This document shows, one piece after another, positions 1 through 16,156 of a DNA stretch of 26,494 bases. The DNA comes from a virus. The stretch lies in IMG/VR virus record IMGVR_UViG_3300009537_000936, positions 1 through 26,494 of that record, one strand, 5' to 3'. The position numbers were made by a program, and so were the translations under genes. Position 1 is the first letter of the stretch. The number at the start of each line of letters is the position of its first letter. The notes beneath the pieces are model-generated. The model saw nothing but the letters and a program-made list of their open reading frames with translations. It ran no database searches and was not told where the DNA came from.

Positions 1-32
1 AAGCAATGAGTGAAGAGATTGTTTGGGATTGA
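1..32 (+). CDS. 3' end of an upstream gene (partial, possibly portal)
   Basis: The frame starting at position 3 reads AMSEEIVWD and then a TGA stop at 30-32. Only the last nine codons are present, so no function can be read directly. The next gene looks like a phage scaffold protein, and in tailed phages the portal gene often lies just before the scaffold, so a portal C-terminus is a guess. This segment is less AT-rich than the rest of the window and probably belongs to a different genome. Confidence 0.3.
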   Translation, partial: AMSEEIVWD

Positions 33-77
33 TTCGGCTTTTTTATTGCAAACAACCACAAAAAGGAATTGCGAATA

Positions 78-566
78 ATGGCAAAAGAAAACGAAGGCAC
101 GCTCGCTGCTGAAATATTGCAGGACACTTTGGATAATGCCGATGTTGAAGAAACAGAAGCAAACCAAAATGCTGAAGGTGTGCAACAGACTACGGAAACA
201 GAGGACAATCAAGCAGATGAATCCGGCGAGGACAATCAAGAGCTTGAATCCGATGAACCGATTGTAACCGAAGATCAAGTGAAAGAATGGGGAATGCCTA
301 AGAGTTTTGTAGGGAAACCGGTTTCGGAGGTTTTCAAATCTTACAAGAATCTACAAGGGCAATCGACGAAAGTTTCTCAAGAACTTGCTGATCTTAAAAA
401 ACAGCTTACTCCTAAAGAGGAAAAGAAGGTTGATGAAGCGCGAAAGATCATTCCGCTTGCATACAAGGCGCTGGACAAAGCCGCGAAAACCAACGCCATT
501 AAAAAAAATAACGCGGCCCGCAAAAAATCCCGCCTTATGAAATTGTTCAAAAAAATAAGGAATTAG
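78..566 (+). CDS. Chimeric ORF: phage scaffold-like N-terminus joined to ribosomal protein S20 C-terminus
   Basis: The preferred start is ATG at 78, with an AAGGA-type ribosome binding site about 10 bases upstream. An in-frame TTG at 69 is an alternative. The first ~60 residues are Glu/Asp/Gln-rich and disordered-looking. They are followed by a WGMPKSFVGKPVSEVFKSY segment and a short coiled coil, a pattern I associate with phage capsid scaffold proteins. From about base 400-415 the protein changes abruptly to the C-terminal helix of ribosomal protein S20, including ALDKAAK, then KKN and AARKKSRL. No known protein joins these two. Base composition is less AT-rich than downstream. The simplest reading is two unrelated fragments fused in assembly. 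A real fusion is possible but unlikely. Confidence 0.6.
   Translation: MAKENEGTLAAEILQDTLDNADVEETEANQNAEGVQQTTETEDNQADESGEDNQELESDEPIVTEDQVKEWGMPKSFVGKPVSEVFKSYKNLQGQSTKVSQELADLKKQLTPKEEKKVDEARKIIPLAYKALDKAAKTNAIKKNNAARKKSRLMKLFKKIRN
405..554 (+). pseudogene. rpsT: rpsT (ribosomal protein S20) 3' fragment
   Basis: This part encodes the S20 signature: Asp-Lys-Ala-Ala-Lys, then Lys-Asn, Ala-Ala-Arg-Lys-Lys-Ser-Arg-Leu, and a basic Met-Lys-Leu-Phe-Lys-Lys tail. S20 binds 16S rRNA in the small ribosomal subunit. Only about the last 45-50 residues are here; the basic N-terminal half is missing. The Lys-rich style resembles S20 of small-genome bacteria such as candidate phyla radiation members (inference). 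The left boundary is approximate, between about 395 and 440. The right boundary lies within gaaattgttcaaaaaaataa (539-558), which also reads sensibly in the intein frame downstream and so could be the shared word at which unrelated reads were joined. Confidence 0.65.
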
Positions 567-871
567 CTAACAATATTGTATTCTTAGCAAGAAGTTTAGG
601 TTACTATACTACAATAGTTGAGAAATTAGTTAAATCACAATTAGGAACAGAATCAATAGTTTATAGAATAAATATAAAAGGGGAGGTATGGAAAATTCCA
701 TGCAGGGTGGAAAGAAAGAAAGCTCAAAATTTTAAAAGAGTATCAAATTCTTCTTGTACACAAATAAAAGTAGAAGAAATAGGAAAAGGAAAGTATTATG
801 GTTTTGAGTTGGAAGGAGAGAAAGAAGAGGATAAATTATTTTTTTTAGAGGATTTTACAATAGTACATAAT
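539..871 (+). other. C-terminal part of an intein inside the terminase gene
   Basis: The frame ending in the terminase is open from base 512. From about 539 it reads as the C-terminal part of a Hint (intein) domain: a KELANNIVFLARSLGYY block, a beta-rich stretch with KGEVWKIPC, an IKVEEIGKGKYYGFEL block (typical intein block F), and DFTIVHN immediately before Cys (block G). The penultimate His and final Asn at 866-871 and the +1 Cys at 872 are the residues expected for protein splicing. The N-terminal splicing block and any homing endonuclease domain lie upstream and are missing because the contig changes identity near 539. The splicing end looks intact, but activity cannot be judged from half an intein. 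Confidence 0.85.
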
Positions 872-2185
872 TGTGGAAAAGCTCCAAATTTATTAGATTT
901 TGCAGATGCTACTATGGATTCATTATCTTCTGGATTAAATAGTAGTACAGGACAGATTATATTTTTTGGTACAGGTGGTGGTAATAATACAGATTGGGAA
1001 GGATTTAAAGAAATCTTTTTTAGACCTTCTAAATATAATTGTTTAGAGTTTGAAAATACTTGGGATGAAAACTCATTAGGTACATATTGTGGATTATTTA
1101 TTCCTGATTATTGGACTGCTGAGGGATTTATGACTGATAATGGTGAATCCTTAATAGAATTAGCAAAGGAAGCAGAAATTGGGCATCAAGAAGATATATA
1201 TATTAGAAAAGGAGACATAAGAGGATTAGTTGCAAGAAAAATGGAACATCCTTTAACTCCATCAGAAGCATTTGCAATAAGTGGAAATAATATATTTGAT
1301 GTTATAAGTATAAGAGAATGGAGATTAAAAGTAGAAAGAGAAGAATTACATACTACATTAGGAAATGTGGGTTCTTTCTCAAGGAAAGATGATGGTAAAT
1401 TAAAGTTTAATATTAATGCAGAAGCTGTACCTTTTTGGGATTATCCTATACAAAGAGATTTAGGAACAACAAAAAGTGCAGTAATTATATGGAAAGCACC
1501 ATTAAAAATTGAAGGAAAGATTCCTTCTAATTTATATATTGTAGATGTAGATACATATAGATTTGACCACAGTTCAGGAATATCAGTTGGAGCATGTTAT
1601 GTTAAAATAAGAAGTAGTAACAAAGTTGAATATAATCAGGATGATAGAATTGTTGCACAATATATAGGTAGACCTAGAACTAAAGATGATTTTTCTAAGA
1701 TAGTATTTGAATTGGCTGAATATTACAATGCAAAAATAGGATATGAAAATGATGACCAGACTTTACTTGATTATGCTAAATTAAAAAGAATGGATTTATC
1801 TAAGTGGTTGGAAGGAGAATTTCAACTTGCTTATGATGAGAAACTGAAAACTTCCAATAGTAAAGTAAAAAGAAGGTATGGAATGCACATTGGTAGTGGT
1901 AAACTAAATGAAAGAAAATATACTGGAGATGAATATATAAAAGAGTGGTTGGAAACTAAGAGAGCTGTGGATGATTTAGGAAATATACAATTGAATTTAC
2001 ATACTATATATGATATTGGATTACTAAAAGAATTAGAGAGTTATAATCCAGAGAAAGGAAATTTTGACAGGATAGCTGCATTTAGAATATCAATGTATCA
2101 TGGAAGAGAATTGGTATATAATAGAATGGAGACAATGTTGGATGAAAAGAAAGATAATATATTGCAAAGAGCATTTTTTAAATAA
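539..2185 (+). CDS. terL: Terminase large subunit (TerL), 5'-truncated, intein-containing
   Basis: This protein would drive DNA into the capsid through the portal (ATPase) and cut concatemers (nuclease). The mature part begins at Cys (872) with CGKAPNLLDF, followed by IIFFGTGG (about 953-980), which fits the ATPase region just after Walker B and the coupling motif. The C-terminal half carries an RNase H-like nuclease pattern: YIVDVDTYR near 1535-1560 with candidate metal-binding Asp, GYENDDQ near 1740-1760, and a late FDRIAAFR near 2060-2090. The ATP-binding Walker A half is absent. Only 437 mature residues are present, compared with roughly 600-700 in full-length enzymes. The GTG at 707 is an internal codon, not a true start. 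The portal gene follows 17 bases downstream, the usual packaging order. Confidence 0.85.
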   Translation, partial: EIVQKNKELANNIVFLARSLGYYTTIVEKLVKSQLGTESIVYRINIKGEVWKIPCRVERKKAQNFKRVSNSSCTQIKVEEIGKGKYYGFELEGEKEEDKLFFLEDFTIVHNCGKAPNLLDFADATMDSLSSGLNSSTGQIIFFGTGGGNNTDWEGFKEIFFRPSKYNCLEFENTWDENSLGTYCGLFIPDYWTAEGFMTDNGESLIELAKEAEIGHQEDIYIRKGDIRGLVARKMEHPLTPSEAFAISGNNIFDVISIREWRLKVEREELHTTLGNVGSFSRKDDGKLKFNINAEAVPFWDYPIQRDLGTTKSAVIIWKAPLKIEGKIPSNLYIVDVDTYRFDHSSGISVGACYVKIRSSNKVEYNQDDRIVAQYIGRPRTKDDFSKIVFELAEYYNAKIGYENDDQTLLDYAKLKRMDLSKWLEGEFQLAYDEKLKTSNSKVKRRYGMHIGSGKLNERKYTGDEYIKEWLETKRAVDDLGNIQLNLHTIYDIGLLKELESYNPEKGNFDRIAAFRISMYHGRELVYNRMETMLDEKKDNILQRAFFK

Positions 2186-2202: not shown

Positions 2203-4518
2203 ATGAACGTAACAAGACCAGAACAAAGATTACGGTTTAAAGATAAGGGAGAAGATTGGAAAAAAAGTAATGTCGAATATTGGACAAACATAAGTACTGC
2301 TTATTCTATTACAAATGGTGATGCTACAGTTTTATATGATGTAGCAGCAGGAAAGTTAGATGAAAGCTTATATACTTATGTAACTAATCCGTTAAATGAG
2401 GAGAGGGCAAATCTGAAAGGATACCCATCAAAGATGAGAAATATTGATATTATAAGCTCTAACATTTGGATGCTTATGGGTGAACTCTCCGAAAGATTTT
2501 TTAATCCAATTGTCGTGGCGTTAAATTCCAATTATAGCTCCGAAAAAGAGAAATTAGAATTTGATTTACGTCTAAAACAGCTCCAACAACAGTTTGTTAA
2601 TGGACTTGTGCAAGAAGGTGTACTACCAGAAGAAATTGCACAAACCCCTATGCCAGAGGATATTCTGAAACTTACAGTTTCAAATTTGAAAGACCAACTG
2701 GCTATTCTTGGGCAAGTAGCCATTGATGTCATAATGCAAGATAATGAAGTTGACAGAATCAGGCGTAAAACTTTTTATGATTTTATTGTACTTGCCCGAT
2801 GTTTCACTTATAAAGATGTTTCAATGAATGATGTACGTTATATGTATATTAGTCCTATGGAATTAAGTTTTACAAGTAGTCCTAATGTAGACTTTGTAGA
2901 AGATTGTGAGGCAGTTAAGAGAACTGTATCCATGCCAATATCACAAATGATGGATTTATTTGGAGATGACAAGGAATTTCAAAAGTTTTTACCAGAATTA
3001 GAACAGAAATCTGGATTAGTTGGTTATCAATCTTTATATTCAGGAGGTACTAATAATACTTTAAGTGGAATATTTGGTAATAATAGTGTTAATCAAATTG
3101 AGGGTGTTCAATTAGAACATGTACAATGGGATAGTATGAGATTGCTTAAAAAAATTACAGGAATTGATGTTACAGGAAATCCATATAGTGAAGTATTTGA
3201 TGAAGACTATATAGCAATAGAAGGAGAAGAAGTTGAGGAGTTTTGGGTAAAAGAAATATGGGAAGGATATAGAGTAGATAATAATCATATCTTTGGTGTT
3301 GAACCATTAGCTAATCAAAGAGGAACTTATGATAATCCTAATAGAGTAAAAAAATCTTATAATGGTAGAATATTTAATAATAATTATGTAATACCACAAT
3401 CTATTGTAGAAAAAGGATTGATATTTCAGATAAAATATAATATTGTACATTATCAGTTGGAAATGACTCTTAATAAGAATATGCACAAGATTACATTCTT
3501 TCCACTTGGTATAATTCCTAAGAAAGAAGGATGGGATGAATTTACTTTTCTATATTATGCTAAAGCAACAGGATTTGGATTTGTAGATGAAACTAATCCT
3601 GCAACAGCAGCAGCACTTCAATATATGAAGGCTATTGACCTTTCTCTTGGACAATATATAAAAGAAATGTATGATATTCTTAGAATGATAAAGGAAGATT
3701 GGGATGAATCAGTTGGAATTTCAAGACAGAGGAGAGGAAAATCAATGGCATCTGATGGTAAAGCAGTTACAGAAGAAGCTATATTTAGAAGTAGTGTAAC
3801 AAGTGAAGAATTCTTTAAACAACATGAAGAAATCATAGTAAGAGATTTGAATGGATTACTTGATTTATCTAAAGTAGCATGGATAACAGGTAGAAAAGGT
3901 AGTTATATTAATAGTGAATATAAAAGAGTGGACTATGTTTTAGACCCAGAAGTATATCCATATAGTGAACATCAGGTATATGTACAAAATTCAGCTAAAG
4001 CAGCAAAACAAGTTGCAATGATGCAAAATCAAATTGGTACAATTGCTCAACAAACCCAACAGTTTAGTATCTTACCTAGAATTGCACAAGCTGTTAATAT
4101 GCCACAATTAATAGAGCAGTTGGAAGCAATAGAAGCTAATTTAGCTAAAAATGCTAAAGCACAACAAGAAGCAGAACAAGCAGTAGAACAAGCTAATATT
4201 GAATCTTTAGAGAAAGATAGGCAATTAAGAATCTATGAGATAGATGAAAATAATGAAGCTAAAAGAGAAGTTGCTTTGATACAAGCTCAAACTTCTCTAT
4301 TAGCTATAGACACAACAGATGAAGGAGCAGTAGATGCAATTAAACTCGAAGAGTTAAGTAATAAGAGAATGGAAGCATTTGAAAAACTTAGAATAGAGAG
4401 AGAAAAAATACAAGAAGCTAAAGCAGATAGAATAAGTAATGAGAAACTTACCAGAGAAAATATGGTAAATGATAAGGAAGTGGCGCAGATAAATGCAAGA
4501 AACAGGGGAAAGAAATAG
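2203..4518 (+). CDS. Portal protein
   Basis: Likely forms the dodecameric ring at one capsid vertex through which DNA enters and leaves. It is 771 residues, the length usual for crAss-like portals. The N-terminal part has LYTYVTNPLN followed by YPSKMRNIDIISSNIWMLMGE, a pattern I associate with this family. A mixed alpha/beta core follows. From about residue 640 to the end there is a long Ala/Glu/Gln-rich coiled coil, consistent with the crown or barrel region. The start is ATG at 2203 after an A-rich leader (gaaaaaATG) without a Shine-Dalgarno site. Position right after the terminase and before scaffold and capsid genes supports the call. The first ~600 bases are richer in C-containing codons than the rest of the gene, which may reflect recombination. 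Confidence 0.82.
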   Translation: MNVTRPEQRLRFKDKGEDWKKSNVEYWTNISTAYSITNGDATVLYDVAAGKLDESLYTYVTNPLNEERANLKGYPSKMRNIDIISSNIWMLMGELSERFFNPIVVALNSNYSSEKEKLEFDLRLKQLQQQFVNGLVQEGVLPEEIAQTPMPEDILKLTVSNLKDQLAILGQVAIDVIMQDNEVDRIRRKTFYDFIVLARCFTYKDVSMNDVRYMYISPMELSFTSSPNVDFVEDCEAVKRTVSMPISQMMDLFGDDKEFQKFLPELEQKSGLVGYQSLYSGGTNNTLSGIFGNNSVNQIEGVQLEHVQWDSMRLLKKITGIDVTGNPYSEVFDEDYIAIEGEEVEEFWVKEIWEGYRVDNNHIFGVEPLANQRGTYDNPNRVKKSYNGRIFNNNYVIPQSIVEKGLIFQIKYNIVHYQLEMTLNKNMHKITFFPLGIIPKKEGWDEFTFLYYAKATGFGFVDETNPATAAALQYMKAIDLSLGQYIKEMYDILRMIKEDWDESVGISRQRRGKSMASDGKAVTEEAIFRSSVTSEEFFKQHEEIIVRDLNGLLDLSKVAWITGRKGSYINSEYKRVDYVLDPEVYPYSEHQVYVQNSAKAAKQVAMMQNQIGTIAQQTQQFSILPRIAQAVNMPQLIEQLEAIEANLAKNAKAQQEAEQAVEQANIESLEKDRQLRIYEIDENNEAKREVALIQAQTSLLAIDTTDEGAVDAIKLEELSNKRMEAFEKLRIEREKIQEAKADRISNEKLTRENMVNDKEVAQINARNRGKK

Positions 4519-11447: not shown

Positions 11448-11703
11448 AACTGAATTACAGAATTTAATAGATAAAGTAGCTAAAAAATTAGCTTATGTGA
11501 ATATGCACTTTATGTATCATTATAGATTTGGTACGGATATATGTATGACAAGAGAAAGACAATATGCACTGTTTCTATACTACTGGATATTACTTAATTA
11601 TGATGTAAATGAGGATGGGAGTACAAATGGACAATACAACTATATAACAGAAATAGAATTTAATACAGTAATACAGAAAATTAAAAAAGCATTACTTTGG
11701 TAG
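11440..11703 (+). CDS. Small conserved hypothetical protein (87 aa)
   Basis: I chose ATG at 11440. A GTG codon just before it (11437) could also start. The protein is helical and rich in Tyr, Phe and Met (NMHFMYHYRFGTD and ALFLYYWILLNYD), with a central hydrophobic stretch that is too broken by polar residues for a confident membrane helix. It overlaps the preceding Cys-rich gene by 8 bases and the following fibre gene by 7. I do not recognise the family. A role in fibre or tail assembly is possible by position only. Confidence 0.5.
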   Translation: MSRTELQNLIDKVAKKLAYVNMHFMYHYRFGTDICMTRERQYALFLYYWILLNYDVNEDGSTNGQYNYITEIEFNTVIQKIKKALLW

Positions 11704-12695
11704 AAATAGATGACATATTAGATGAACATGGTGATTCTATAAAGTTACGTTGTAGTCCAACTACAGTTATTCCTCCATGTGGAACTGAAAGTGGAATACC
11801 TGAACCAACACCAGAACCAGAACCCACTCCTATAGCAGGAGGGGGAGATACTCCTGTTGGTGGAATAATAATGTATGGTGGAACAACTGCACCTGATAAT
11901 TGGTTTTTATGTAATGGTGCAGAATATGATACAGAAACATATACTGAATTATTTGCAGTAATTGCTTATACATTTGGTGGGGCGGGAGAAAAGTTTAGAG
12001 TACCATCAGGAAATGGGAGAAGTCCAATAGGAACAGGAAATGCAGGAACACCTAATACAACAAATAGAACATTAGGAACGAAATATGGAAGTGAGAAAGT
12101 AGATGCTAATCATGGACATATTTTAGTCATAGACCAAGAAGAATTAATAAATTCTGTAGAGATTCCTGTTGTTGTTGATAATGTTAATATTGACGCACAT
12201 TCTTTAACTGACATTAAATTAGACATTAACTCTTTAAATTTAAAACATAATCATGGTTTAGGAGACCCTGTAACTATACCAATAACTATAGAAGCAGTAG
12301 ACCCACCACCTACTCCAGTTCCAATAGAATTAGATGGTGTAACATGTACTAGTAAAAGTAATGGAACAGTTTCTAATGCCTTAGCTTGCGACCCAGAAGG
12401 AGACGCACCATCAATAACAATTACAGGAGCAGATATAGTACCATTATTGACAGCTAGCATTAGTGTTGGTGGAGGTAGTACAGAGGATGCTTTAGAAGAA
12501 TTAATACCTATAACAGGAACGATAAAAGCAGGAGAAGAATTAACTCATACTCCACATACTCATGGTGCTAATATAGAAGCAGCAGCATTAGATTTTACTC
12601 ATAGTCATGGAGGAGAAGTACAAGCTACAGGAGCTTGGAAATTAGATATACTTCATCCAGTATTTGCAATTAATTATATAATAAGATATAAATAA
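11697..12695 (+). CDS. Tail/head fibre protein with phage collar domain and HxH sites
   Basis: Probably a host-contact fibre. Starting from TTG at 11697 (the next in-frame ATG is 175 bases later and would cut the protein), residues 34-50 form a Pro/Glu linker. Residues ~54-115 match the phage tail collar domain: GGIIMYGGTTAPDNWFLCNG, then FRVPSGNGRSPIG. The rest is beta-rich with four His motifs: HGH (139-141), HNH (184-186), HTPHTH (284-289) and HSH (302-304). HxH motifs in trimeric phage fibres such as T4 gp12/gp37 bind metal ions along the fibre axis. The C-terminus LDILHPVFAINYIIRYK is typical of collar fibres. Two small fibre-type genes follow. Confidence 0.75.
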   Translation: MVEIDDILDEHGDSIKLRCSPTTVIPPCGTESGIPEPTPEPEPTPIAGGGDTPVGGIIMYGGTTAPDNWFLCNGAEYDTETYTELFAVIAYTFGGAGEKFRVPSGNGRSPIGTGNAGTPNTTNRTLGTKYGSEKVDANHGHILVIDQEELINSVEIPVVVDNVNIDAHSLTDIKLDINSLNLKHNHGLGDPVTIPITIEAVDPPPTPVPIELDGVTCTSKSNGTVSNALACDPEGDAPSITITGADIVPLLTASISVGGGSTEDALEELIPITGTIKAGEELTHTPHTHGANIEAAALDFTHSHGGEVQATGAWKLDILHPVFAINYIIRYK

Positions 12696-12964: not shown

Positions 12965-14779
12965 ATGCCAAAATTAGGTTTAGGTTTAGGTTTAGATAAA
13001 AGAAGAGGTAATTTGATTGCCGCACCAGTAGCAATAGCACCTTATCCTTTTATTTCTGGAAATTTAACAGAGGGAAGTACGTTGTCAATCACTCCTGGTA
13101 CGTGGACAGGAATACCAACTCCAACTCTTTCTTATCAGTGGAAAAGGGGAGCGACAAACATTGGCGGAGCAATAGGAACAACTTATGTAAGTGTTCTTGC
13201 AGATAGTGAAGAAATCATAACCTGCGTAGAAACGGCAACCAATGAAGCAGGTTCAGCATCACAGGCGAGTAATGCCTTAACAATGAATAATTACAAGCCT
13301 GTTAATACAGGTGCTCCTGTTGTAAGTGGTAATTTAACAGAGGGAAGTACGCTAACTACAACTAACGGAACTTGGACAGGAACAGGAATAAGTTATACTT
13401 ATCAATGGACACGAAACGGAGTTGATATAGGAGGAGCGACAAACAACAGTTATGTATCTGTTTTAGCTGATTCAGAAAAACAAATTCTATGTGTCGTTAA
13501 GGCAACGAACTCAGCAGGAAATGCAAGTGCAAACAGTAATTATTTAACAATGAATAATTACAAACCTGTTAATACCGTTGCTCCAGCAGTAACCAATGCA
13601 GTTACAACTGGATTGTTCGGAATAGGTGAACAACTATCTTGTTCAGAAGGAACTTGGACAGGAACAGGAATAAGTTATAGTTACACATGGTACAGAGGTG
13701 CAACTGTTTTAGCAACAATAAACACTTATACACCTGTTACAGCCGACATAGGGCAGTCGATTAAGTGTGTAGTGAGAGGAACGAATGCAGCAGGATTTAC
13801 AGATGCTGATAGTAATGCAGAAACTATTGTAAATGTATTCGTAAGTACATGGGATACCACAAAGGCGGGAAGTGCAAGTAATACAATTGTTTTACCTTAC
13901 GAAGCAGCAGGAACTTATGAAGGAACTATTTATTGGGGTGATGGAACGACAAGTACAAACGCTTACGCAAATAGAACTAAAGTATATGCAGCAAGTGGAA
14001 TTAAAACAGTAAAAGTAGTTGGAGTTACAACAGGATTTAGATTTGCTAATGCAGATGATAAATTAAAAATAACTAACATAGCAAGGTGGGGAGCGTTGCG
14101 ATTAGGAAATAGTGGCGAATATTTTCGGGGATGTAAAAATTTAACATTAACAACGGTTGCAGATATATTAGATTTAACAGGAACAACTGATTGTTCATAT
14201 ATCTTTGCCGATTGTACCGCTTTCACAACTGTAAATAATATGAACAGTTGGAATATGGGTGCTGTAACAAAAATAACAGGTATGTTTCAATTGGCAGTTG
14301 CTTTCAATCAAAACATTGGAAGTTGGAATACAGGTGCTGTAACAGCTATGAATAATATGTTTTTTGGTGCAGCTGCTTTCAATCAAAACATTGGAAGTTG
14401 GAATACAGGTGCTGTAAAAAATATGGAGCAAACATTTAGGGGAGCAACTGCTTTCAATCAAAACATAGGAAGTTGGGATACTGCGAAGGTAACAAATATG
14501 TATGCTATGTTTTATAATGCACTTGCCTTTAATCAGAACATTGGAAGTTGGAATGTAAGTCTTGTTACTAATTTTACAGATTTTATGTTCGGAAAAACAG
14601 CCGCAACATTCTCAGCCGCCAACTTAGATGCAATCTATAACGGTTGGAGTTCTCGTTCAGTACAAGCATCAATAACAATAACATTTGGCTCTATAAAATA
14701 CACATCAGCAGGAGTAGCAGGAAGAGCAGTTCTAACAGACGCTCCAAACAATTGGAGTATAACAGATGGAGGTATATAA
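12965..14779 (+). CDS. Ig-like and BspA-type (DUF285) repeat protein, putative host-adhesion fibre
   Basis: A 604-residue putative surface-binding protein. Order: an N-terminal Gly-Leu repeat and DKRRG; three Ig-like domains of ~90 residues (about 18-110, 111-200, 201-290), each with a GNLTEGSTL- or GEQLSCSEGT-type start, GTWTG, a Tyr/Trp core strand and a Cys near the end; then the BspA entry (TWDTTKAGS to YWGDGTT); then four to five 25-residue repeats with AFNQNIGSWNTGAVTNM-type cores (about 425-560); then a capping segment ending NNWSITDGGI. DUF285/BspA repeats form leucine-rich-repeat-like surface proteins in bacteria. There is no signal peptide, which fits a virion protein. Base use is less AT-biased than in neighbours, suggesting acquisition. 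Its stop overlaps the next start. Confidence 0.78.
   Translation: MPKLGLGLGLDKRRGNLIAAPVAIAPYPFISGNLTEGSTLSITPGTWTGIPTPTLSYQWKRGATNIGGAIGTTYVSVLADSEEIITCVETATNEAGSASQASNALTMNNYKPVNTGAPVVSGNLTEGSTLTTTNGTWTGTGISYTYQWTRNGVDIGGATNNSYVSVLADSEKQILCVVKATNSAGNASANSNYLTMNNYKPVNTVAPAVTNAVTTGLFGIGEQLSCSEGTWTGTGISYSYTWYRGATVLATINTYTPVTADIGQSIKCVVRGTNAAGFTDADSNAETIVNVFVSTWDTTKAGSASNTIVLPYEAAGTYEGTIYWGDGTTSTNAYANRTKVYAASGIKTVKVVGVTTGFRFANADDKLKITNIARWGALRLGNSGEYFRGCKNLTLTTVADILDLTGTTDCSYIFADCTAFTTVNNMNSWNMGAVTKITGMFQLAVAFNQNIGSWNTGAVTAMNNMFFGAAAFNQNIGSWNTGAVKNMEQTFRGATAFNQNIGSWDTAKVTNMYAMFYNALAFNQNIGSWNVSLVTNFTDFMFGKTAATFSAANLDAIYNGWSSRSVQASITITFGSIKYTSAGVAGRAVLTDAPNNWSITDGGI
12974..12995 (+). repeat. Short TTAGGT tandem repeat at the gene start
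   Basis: Three full copies of TTAGGT plus TTAG encode the Leu-Gly-Leu-Gly-Leu-Gly-Leu stretch just after the start of the Ig/BspA gene. The unit is six bases, so copy number changes would keep the frame. Similar Gly-Leu N-termini occur in other phage fibre proteins as far as I recall. Confidence 0.7.
14300..14567 (+). repeat. 75-bp direct repeats in the DUF285 region
   Basis: A 43-base core starting gctttcaatcaaaacat begins at 14300, 14375, 14450 and 14525, so the period is exactly 75 bases (25 residues). The first two cores are identical, the third has drifted in its second half, and the fourth is more diverged. A degenerate copy precedes them at about 14225. In-frame units this similar can recombine to change the number of repeats. 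Confidence 0.85.
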
Positions 14780-15724: not shown

Positions 15725-16156
15725 ATGGAATTAAAAGTTAAAAGATTTAAAAATGCTGTTAAATATACAGCAGGAAAATTATATATTGATGAAGTGTATT
15801 TTAGTTATACATTAGAAGATACTAATAGAATGCTAACTTCAAGTATGGATTTAGACATAATAAAGAAGATTAAAGTAAAGAATGAAACAGCTATACCTAC
15901 AGGAAAATATGAAATAGTAGTAAATTTTAGTAATCACTTTAAAAAGCAGATGCCATTATTAATAGGAGTAAAAGGATTTGAAGGTATAAGAATACATGCA
16001 GGCAATAAACCTGAAGATACTGAAGGTTGTCTATTAGTAGGATATGAAGATAGTAGTGATGGATTCATGGGTAATAGTAGAGATGCAGTAACTGCATTAT
16101 ATACTAAATTATTTGAAGCAATTAAAACAGAAAAAATCTGGATAACATACGAATAA
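15725..16156 (+). CDS. DUF5675-like protein
   Basis: A 143-residue protein resembling the DUF5675 family as I remember it: an N-terminal KVKRFKNAVKYTAGKLYID strand pair, AIPTGKYEI, then GIRIHAGNKPEDTEGCLLVG around residues 95-115. The His, Asp, Glu and Cys in that last segment recall the active-site arrangement of L,D-transpeptidase-like folds, but enzymatic activity is not established for the family. These proteins are common in Bacteroidetes phages, often near lysis genes, so a link to cell-wall interaction is an inference from context. Start is ATG at 15725 after aaatta. Confidence 0.65.
   Translation: MELKVKRFKNAVKYTAGKLYIDEVYFSYTLEDTNRMLTSSMDLDIIKKIKVKNETAIPTGKYEIVVNFSNHFKKQMPLLIGVKGFEGIRIHAGNKPEDTEGCLLVGYEDSSDGFMGNSRDAVTALYTKLFEAIKTEKIWITYE

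Follow-up and report, generated by a model that had tools for sequence, protein, structure and literature searches.

A putative PI-SceI-like intein directly after the presumed Walker B glutamates of a crAss-like phage terminase

Phage record IMGVR_UViG_3300009537_000936 of IMG/VR, whose whole 26,494-nucleotide stretch we call the window, appears to carry an intein fragment, the C-terminal third of a class-1-type, PI-SceI-like element (Hint plus LAGLIDADG). The fragment lies in frame in a crAss-like terminase large subunit (TerL), directly after the Glu–Glu pair (EE) of the presumed Walker B motif, and its upstream half was probably lost to a mis-join in the contig; we put the probability of this reading at roughly 93%. 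Observed directly are the intein C-terminus, the Cys at +1, the insertion site, homologous inteins at that same site in other phages, and close relatives that lack the insert.

The intein fragment

A reading frame free of stops (536–2185, plus strand) spans both the intein fragment and the terminase C-extein that follows it. The intein portion, 112 aa at 536–871, comprises the second half of a LAGLIDADG endonuclease domain and the Hint C-terminal blocks F and G, as judged from its homologues (L004–L007 and L105–L183), a Vibrio phage match, and alignment with the complete inteins of two other contigs, L108 and L116. Of the LAGLIDADG domain the window holds just the part downstream of the second LAGLIDADG motif, and the N-terminal ∼240 aa, two-thirds of the intein and with them Cys1 and blocks A and B, are missing from the contig. 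The translation of 536–871 runs YEIVQKNKELANNIVFLARSLGYY...KIPCRVERKK...GKGKYYGFELEGEKEEDKLFFLEDFTIVHN, of which the last element is the block F/G region (782–871). An earlier note on this DNA, made from the letters alone, had begun the intein at 539; the intein nature of the segment is upheld, while its start moves to 536, the Tyr of YEIVQKN (compare SYEIA in L108 and L116).

In an alignment of 33 inteins, the terminal Asn (869–871) is invariant and the His before it (866–868) nearly so. Followed by Cys+1 (872–874), the first C-extein residue, they give HN|C at 866–874, which is the C-terminal signature of a class 1 intein (Asn, usually after His, then Cys, Ser, or Thr at +1). Block F contains a four-residue insert, which reads EKEE in the window (818–829). 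The L108 and L116 inteins also have an insert of four residues here, whereas the remaining 30 inteins of the alignment have none of that length; the L110 intein has a shorter, two-residue insert in this block. Block F also has a Lys (DK) in the window intein, as in L110 and L111, at a place where many relatives have His (DH).

The earlier note had named these features (blocks F and G, terminal His–Asn, and a +1 Cys before CGKAPNLLDF); the residues are as it stated, and homologues bear it out. A tblastn search of 539–871 against 2.3 Gb of phage records matched 226 records, nearly all across most of the query, the best being a Vibrio phage homing endonuclease (43.8% identity, E 2e-20), and a profile scan of IMG/VR yielded 80 confirmed intein homologues, with E down to 5e-28. 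Pfam returned only sub-threshold matches for the lone 111-aa fragment (Hom_end_hint, E 0.035; Hom_end, E 0.057). No relative of the intein was confirmed in bacterial genomes, and plasmids gave no match. The window contains no tRNA and no Rfam family, and thus neither a suppressor tRNA nor a group I intron was seen. Taken by its sequence, we read 536–871 as the C-terminal end of a PI-SceI-like, class-1-type intein in a crAss-like TerL.

The host terminase and the insertion site

The C-extein (872–2185, plus strand), extending from just past the presumed Walker B glutamates to the stop codon, matches the terminase large subunit family phrog_6681 (E 3e-64), covering profile positions 298–742 of 758. 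It is followed by a portal protein gene (2203–4518, plus strand; phrog_6547, E 1.5e-75) in the crAss-like TerL–portal order. The window also carries the Crassvirales markers Crass_capsid (PF23898, E 9.5e-58) and CrAss_Ring_2 (PF25702, E 3.5e-16). Its TerL family match is of crAss type and its gene order is TerL–portal–MCP, which together identify the contig from ∼536 onward, on gene content, as a crAss-like phage. Farther along, the structural genes include a tail collar-domain protein (11697–12695), a 604-aa protein downstream of it (12965–14779) with DUF285 (BspA-like surface repeat) domains (E 2e-43), and a DUF5675 protein (15725–16156, E 4e-29).

Similarity to TerL begins only at residue 2 counted from Cys 872–874, and hence the in-frame sequence before 872 is extra. 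The C-extein, 437 residues and open throughout, is 63–68% identical to TerLs at nine close loci (L014–L022, which include several near-copies of each other), and none of the nine, as fetched, has the insert: their sequence over this position is RGKDADEIYVEE-SGKAPN (IYVEE, then SGKAPN). Because these relatives run from EE straight to the next residue, the insertion point falls directly after EE, i.e. EE|intein|CGKAPNLLDF. Across the nine loci, then, the element is in frame, is absent from related host proteins, and interrupts exteins that are continuous without it. The earlier note had allowed for 539–871 being ordinary terminase sequence; the nine loci, which have no such stretch, rule this out. 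At +1 the window has Cys. The nine close loci that lack the intein have Ser there, and the other crAss TerLs that we read have Ala, Gly, or Met.

Across the aligned TerLs, a hydrophobic stretch and EE precede the site. We presume this strand and its glutamates to be Walker B from the order of the motifs; comparison of the TerL profile with Terminase_3 by hhalign gave no signal for Walker B, and an AlphaFold model of TerL was poor (pLDDT 42) and uninformative on that point. The location next to the ATPase active site that the earlier note proposed is sustained as an insertion right after EE, with the name Walker B going by motif order only.

Related inteins at the same site

Two other phage contigs carry complete inteins at this site. 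That of L108 (a 93.9-kb contig) has 351 residues (...TMCFEE|CLGKGTKVFMF...LEDFTITHN|CGRFKGLLDAY) and that of L116 has 352 (...RSLLDE|CFAKGTKILMD...LEDFTISMN|CGKFPKEV); the L116 contig begins some 60 residues ahead of its intein, so that TerL is cut off upstream. Both inteins are contiguous, start with Cys1 (CLGKGTKV in L108, CFAKGTKI in L116), and include a LAGLIDADG domain. The L116 intein (182–1237 of its contig) ends in Met–Asn in place of His–Asn. TerL and portal of both contigs belong to the same PHROGs as those of the window, and their TerLs are broken at phrog_6681 position 296–298. The earlier note had called for recovery of the 5′ half from related contigs: a whole Cys1-to-Asn LAGLIDADG intein was found at the same site in L108 and L116, and a search for the window phage's own half gave no match.

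These complete homologues also bear on whether the window holds a decayed, splicing-dead intein remnant, or a TerL fragment that is a pseudogene, in either case with no splicing. Only the C-terminal third of the intein is readable, and block F has both the four-residue insert and Lys where His is common, as such decay might produce; yet the complete L108 and L116 inteins have an insert of identical length, His–Asn–Cys is intact, and the 437-residue C-extein is open and still 63–68% identical to intact relatives. We regard a dead remnant as very improbable.

The window, L108, and L116 inteins form one clade in a tree of 70 inteins (SH-aLRT 91, a moderate support given the few columns of that tree), and 0 of 500 shuffles were as clustered. 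Identity to the window is 50% (L108) and 45% (L116) in the C-terminal part of the intein and 29% and 25%, respectively, in the C-extein, a comparison that rests on a short intein sample of 111 residues. The inteins are thus more alike than the terminases that host them, which is unexpected under plain descent and makes transfer into the same site the simpler reading; the pattern fits horizontal homing into one TerL site.

The kind of intein and its wider family

We describe the family from the complete L108 intein. It contains Hom_end_hint (PF05203, E 1e-19), Hom_end, and LAGLIDADG_3 domains, with the LAGLIDADG motifs GAWLGDGE and LAGLLDTDG. It matches PI-SceI by sequence (E 4e-14) and by family profile (E 4e-48, the match ending at the last PI-SceI residue, 454), and its predicted structure (pLDDT 91.8) has PI-SceI as top Foldseek match (E 5e-26). 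The L116 intein, too, has the full architecture, and between them the two match PI-SceI or the Pfam families of PI-SceI. PI-SceI, the yeast VMA1 intein, shares domain architecture and fold, but is 454 aa long rather than about 350, resides in another host gene, and has ∼20% identity by fold alignment.

Homologues with a recognizable N-terminus are mostly Cys-led, of ∼330–385 residues, with LAGLIDADG motifs, and interrupt a nucleotide-binding protein; by these homologues the window intein looks to be of class 1 type. Their usual site is in or beside the P-loop (GK|C...HN|T/S) of helicases and Terminase_3 large subunits. Phage Hint–LAGLIDADG inteins such as those of Aeromonas phage pIS4-A, Salmonella phage ST44, L005, and L007 belong to the same family as the window intein, but are situated at this Walker A position and mostly have Thr or Ser at +1. 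Two further cases are recorded here as observations in their own right. The crAss-like phage cr118_1 (NC_055872.1; L186 293–3880, L024 301–3471) has inteins in two adjacent genes, TerL (at a C-terminal site) and portal, of which the portal intein is of the window's PI-SceI-like family. A family member in L176 (3501–3824) occurs at GDF|C...HN|CQLPP, a site that may be Walker B in a RecD-like helicase and that has Cys at +1.

The chimeric left end of the contig

Upstream of the phage sequence is a piece of a Patescibacteria rpsT gene (ribosomal protein S20), namely its 3′ end (417–554, plus strand; Pfam S20, E 2.8e-10; TIGR00029), with nucleotide identity of 80% over 135 bases to L025 and of 79% over 138 bases to the Patescibacteria MAG L026. 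Before it, 1–416 (plus strand) is foreign or unplaced sequence, including an ORF from 69 that is fused in frame with the S20 piece and that, over 69–416, has no relative among phages, viral contigs, or PHROGs. GC3 is 0.345 in 1–416 and 0.35–0.58 in the left end, and it is 0.16 in the intein, 0.14 in the C-extein, and 0.14–0.18 in phage genes. The ∼18 bases at 536–554 (TATGAAATTGTTCAAAAAA) can be read either as the S20 end (LMKLFKK) or as intein (YEIVQKN), and may represent a short common word in the assembly graph. From these data the left end of the contig is, we conclude, a chimera of ORF 69–416, then rpsT 417–554, then phage, with the mis-join at ∼536–554. The upstream half of the intein is absent because the contig was mis-joined to the rpsT fragment, and the intein front was most likely lost by assembly, not evolution. 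The left 535–555 bases of the IMG/VR record are accordingly non-phage, and the gene calls there are wrong (a fused S20-like ORF, and TerL starting at 707).

Since the upstream sequence is bacterial rpsT, a contig artefact rather than the start of a phage gene, it also speaks against a naturally split intein, in which the C-half and C-extein would form a separate gene and the N-half would be encoded at some other place in the genome. The record indeed has no N-terminal half immediately before the C-half, as a split would entail, but the fragment breaks off within the endonuclease domain and the L108 and L116 inteins are contiguous; we consider a split more improbable still than decay. Least credible is that assembly also created the intein–extein join at 871/872, by attaching to this TerL the intein end of a different genome. 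The contig has one chimeric join ∼300 bases upstream, but that at 871/872 is exact and in frame, at Asn/Cys+1, a position at which related inteins are present in two other phages, and GC3 is similar on either side.

No second record of the window phage was found: the exact 29-base junction had no match in IMG/VR, a degenerate HN-x-GKAPN search gave only two chance matches in unrelated short frames, and a DEIYVEE-Cys search for the 5′ half had no match.

Discussion

That 536–871 is the end of an intein whose front was lost by mis-joining suggests the following course for the intact phage gene, for which we infer Cys1 and the upstream half, splicing, endonuclease activity, and horizontal homing. 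By homology to the complete L108 intein, the window intein would start with Cys. A thioester would form at Cys1, the N-extein would pass on to Cys+1, and the terminal Asn would cyclize, aided by the penultimate His. Splicing would leave an uninterrupted terminase (...VEE-C-GKAPN...), and no other form would be expected to function as an ATPase motor. The endonuclease, for its part, would cut intein-free terL genes, and repair would copy the intein in. An unspliced precursor would have ∼350 residues within the ATPase core, and packaging should therefore depend on splicing; the proposal of the earlier note that the phage would need protein splicing to package its DNA is, from the sequence, a sound one.

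TerL inteins have already been published for crAss-like phages of the Delta group (Yutin et al. 2021, PMC7886860), and those of OBYQ01000140 were called Hint-Hop type (PMC7886860). The Delta inteins of cr56_1 and cr118_1, the two that our site comparison covers, are likewise in a crAss-like large terminase, but in its C-terminal part (VAEH|..|CITP and IAG|..|CDPYDHD), as opposed to the window's position after the presumed Walker B. Among mycobacteriophages, the TerL1-e intein is in the Walker B motif of TerL (Kelley et al. 2016, PMC5050341); it and other mycobacteriophage TerL inteins splice in a reporter, and two of them cleave intein-free sites (PMC5050341). The likeness to TerL1-e is thus one of location in a phage TerL, whereas TerL1-e is treated among class 3 inteins (PMC5050341) and belongs to the terminase_1 TerL family, and the window intein looks, by its homologues, like class 1. 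A literature search of partial coverage, based on main texts, found no account of this site after Walker B being occupied in three distant crAss-type phages. Given that inteins in crAss TerLs and in the Walker B motif of a mycobacteriophage TerL are known, this copy adds a further member.

At even odds, we propose that a dedicated homing-intein lineage moves among very distant crAss-like terminases, invading a single site next to the glutamates of the ATPase and bringing in its own +1 Cys through co-conversion; it would then leave an EE-C-G Cys scar in every invaded motor, with Ser, Ala, Gly, or Met in those uninvaded. For a phage group of great abundance, the finding adds an intein site in the DNA-packaging motor, and the matched intein-free and intein-bearing relatives make both homing and splicing testable.
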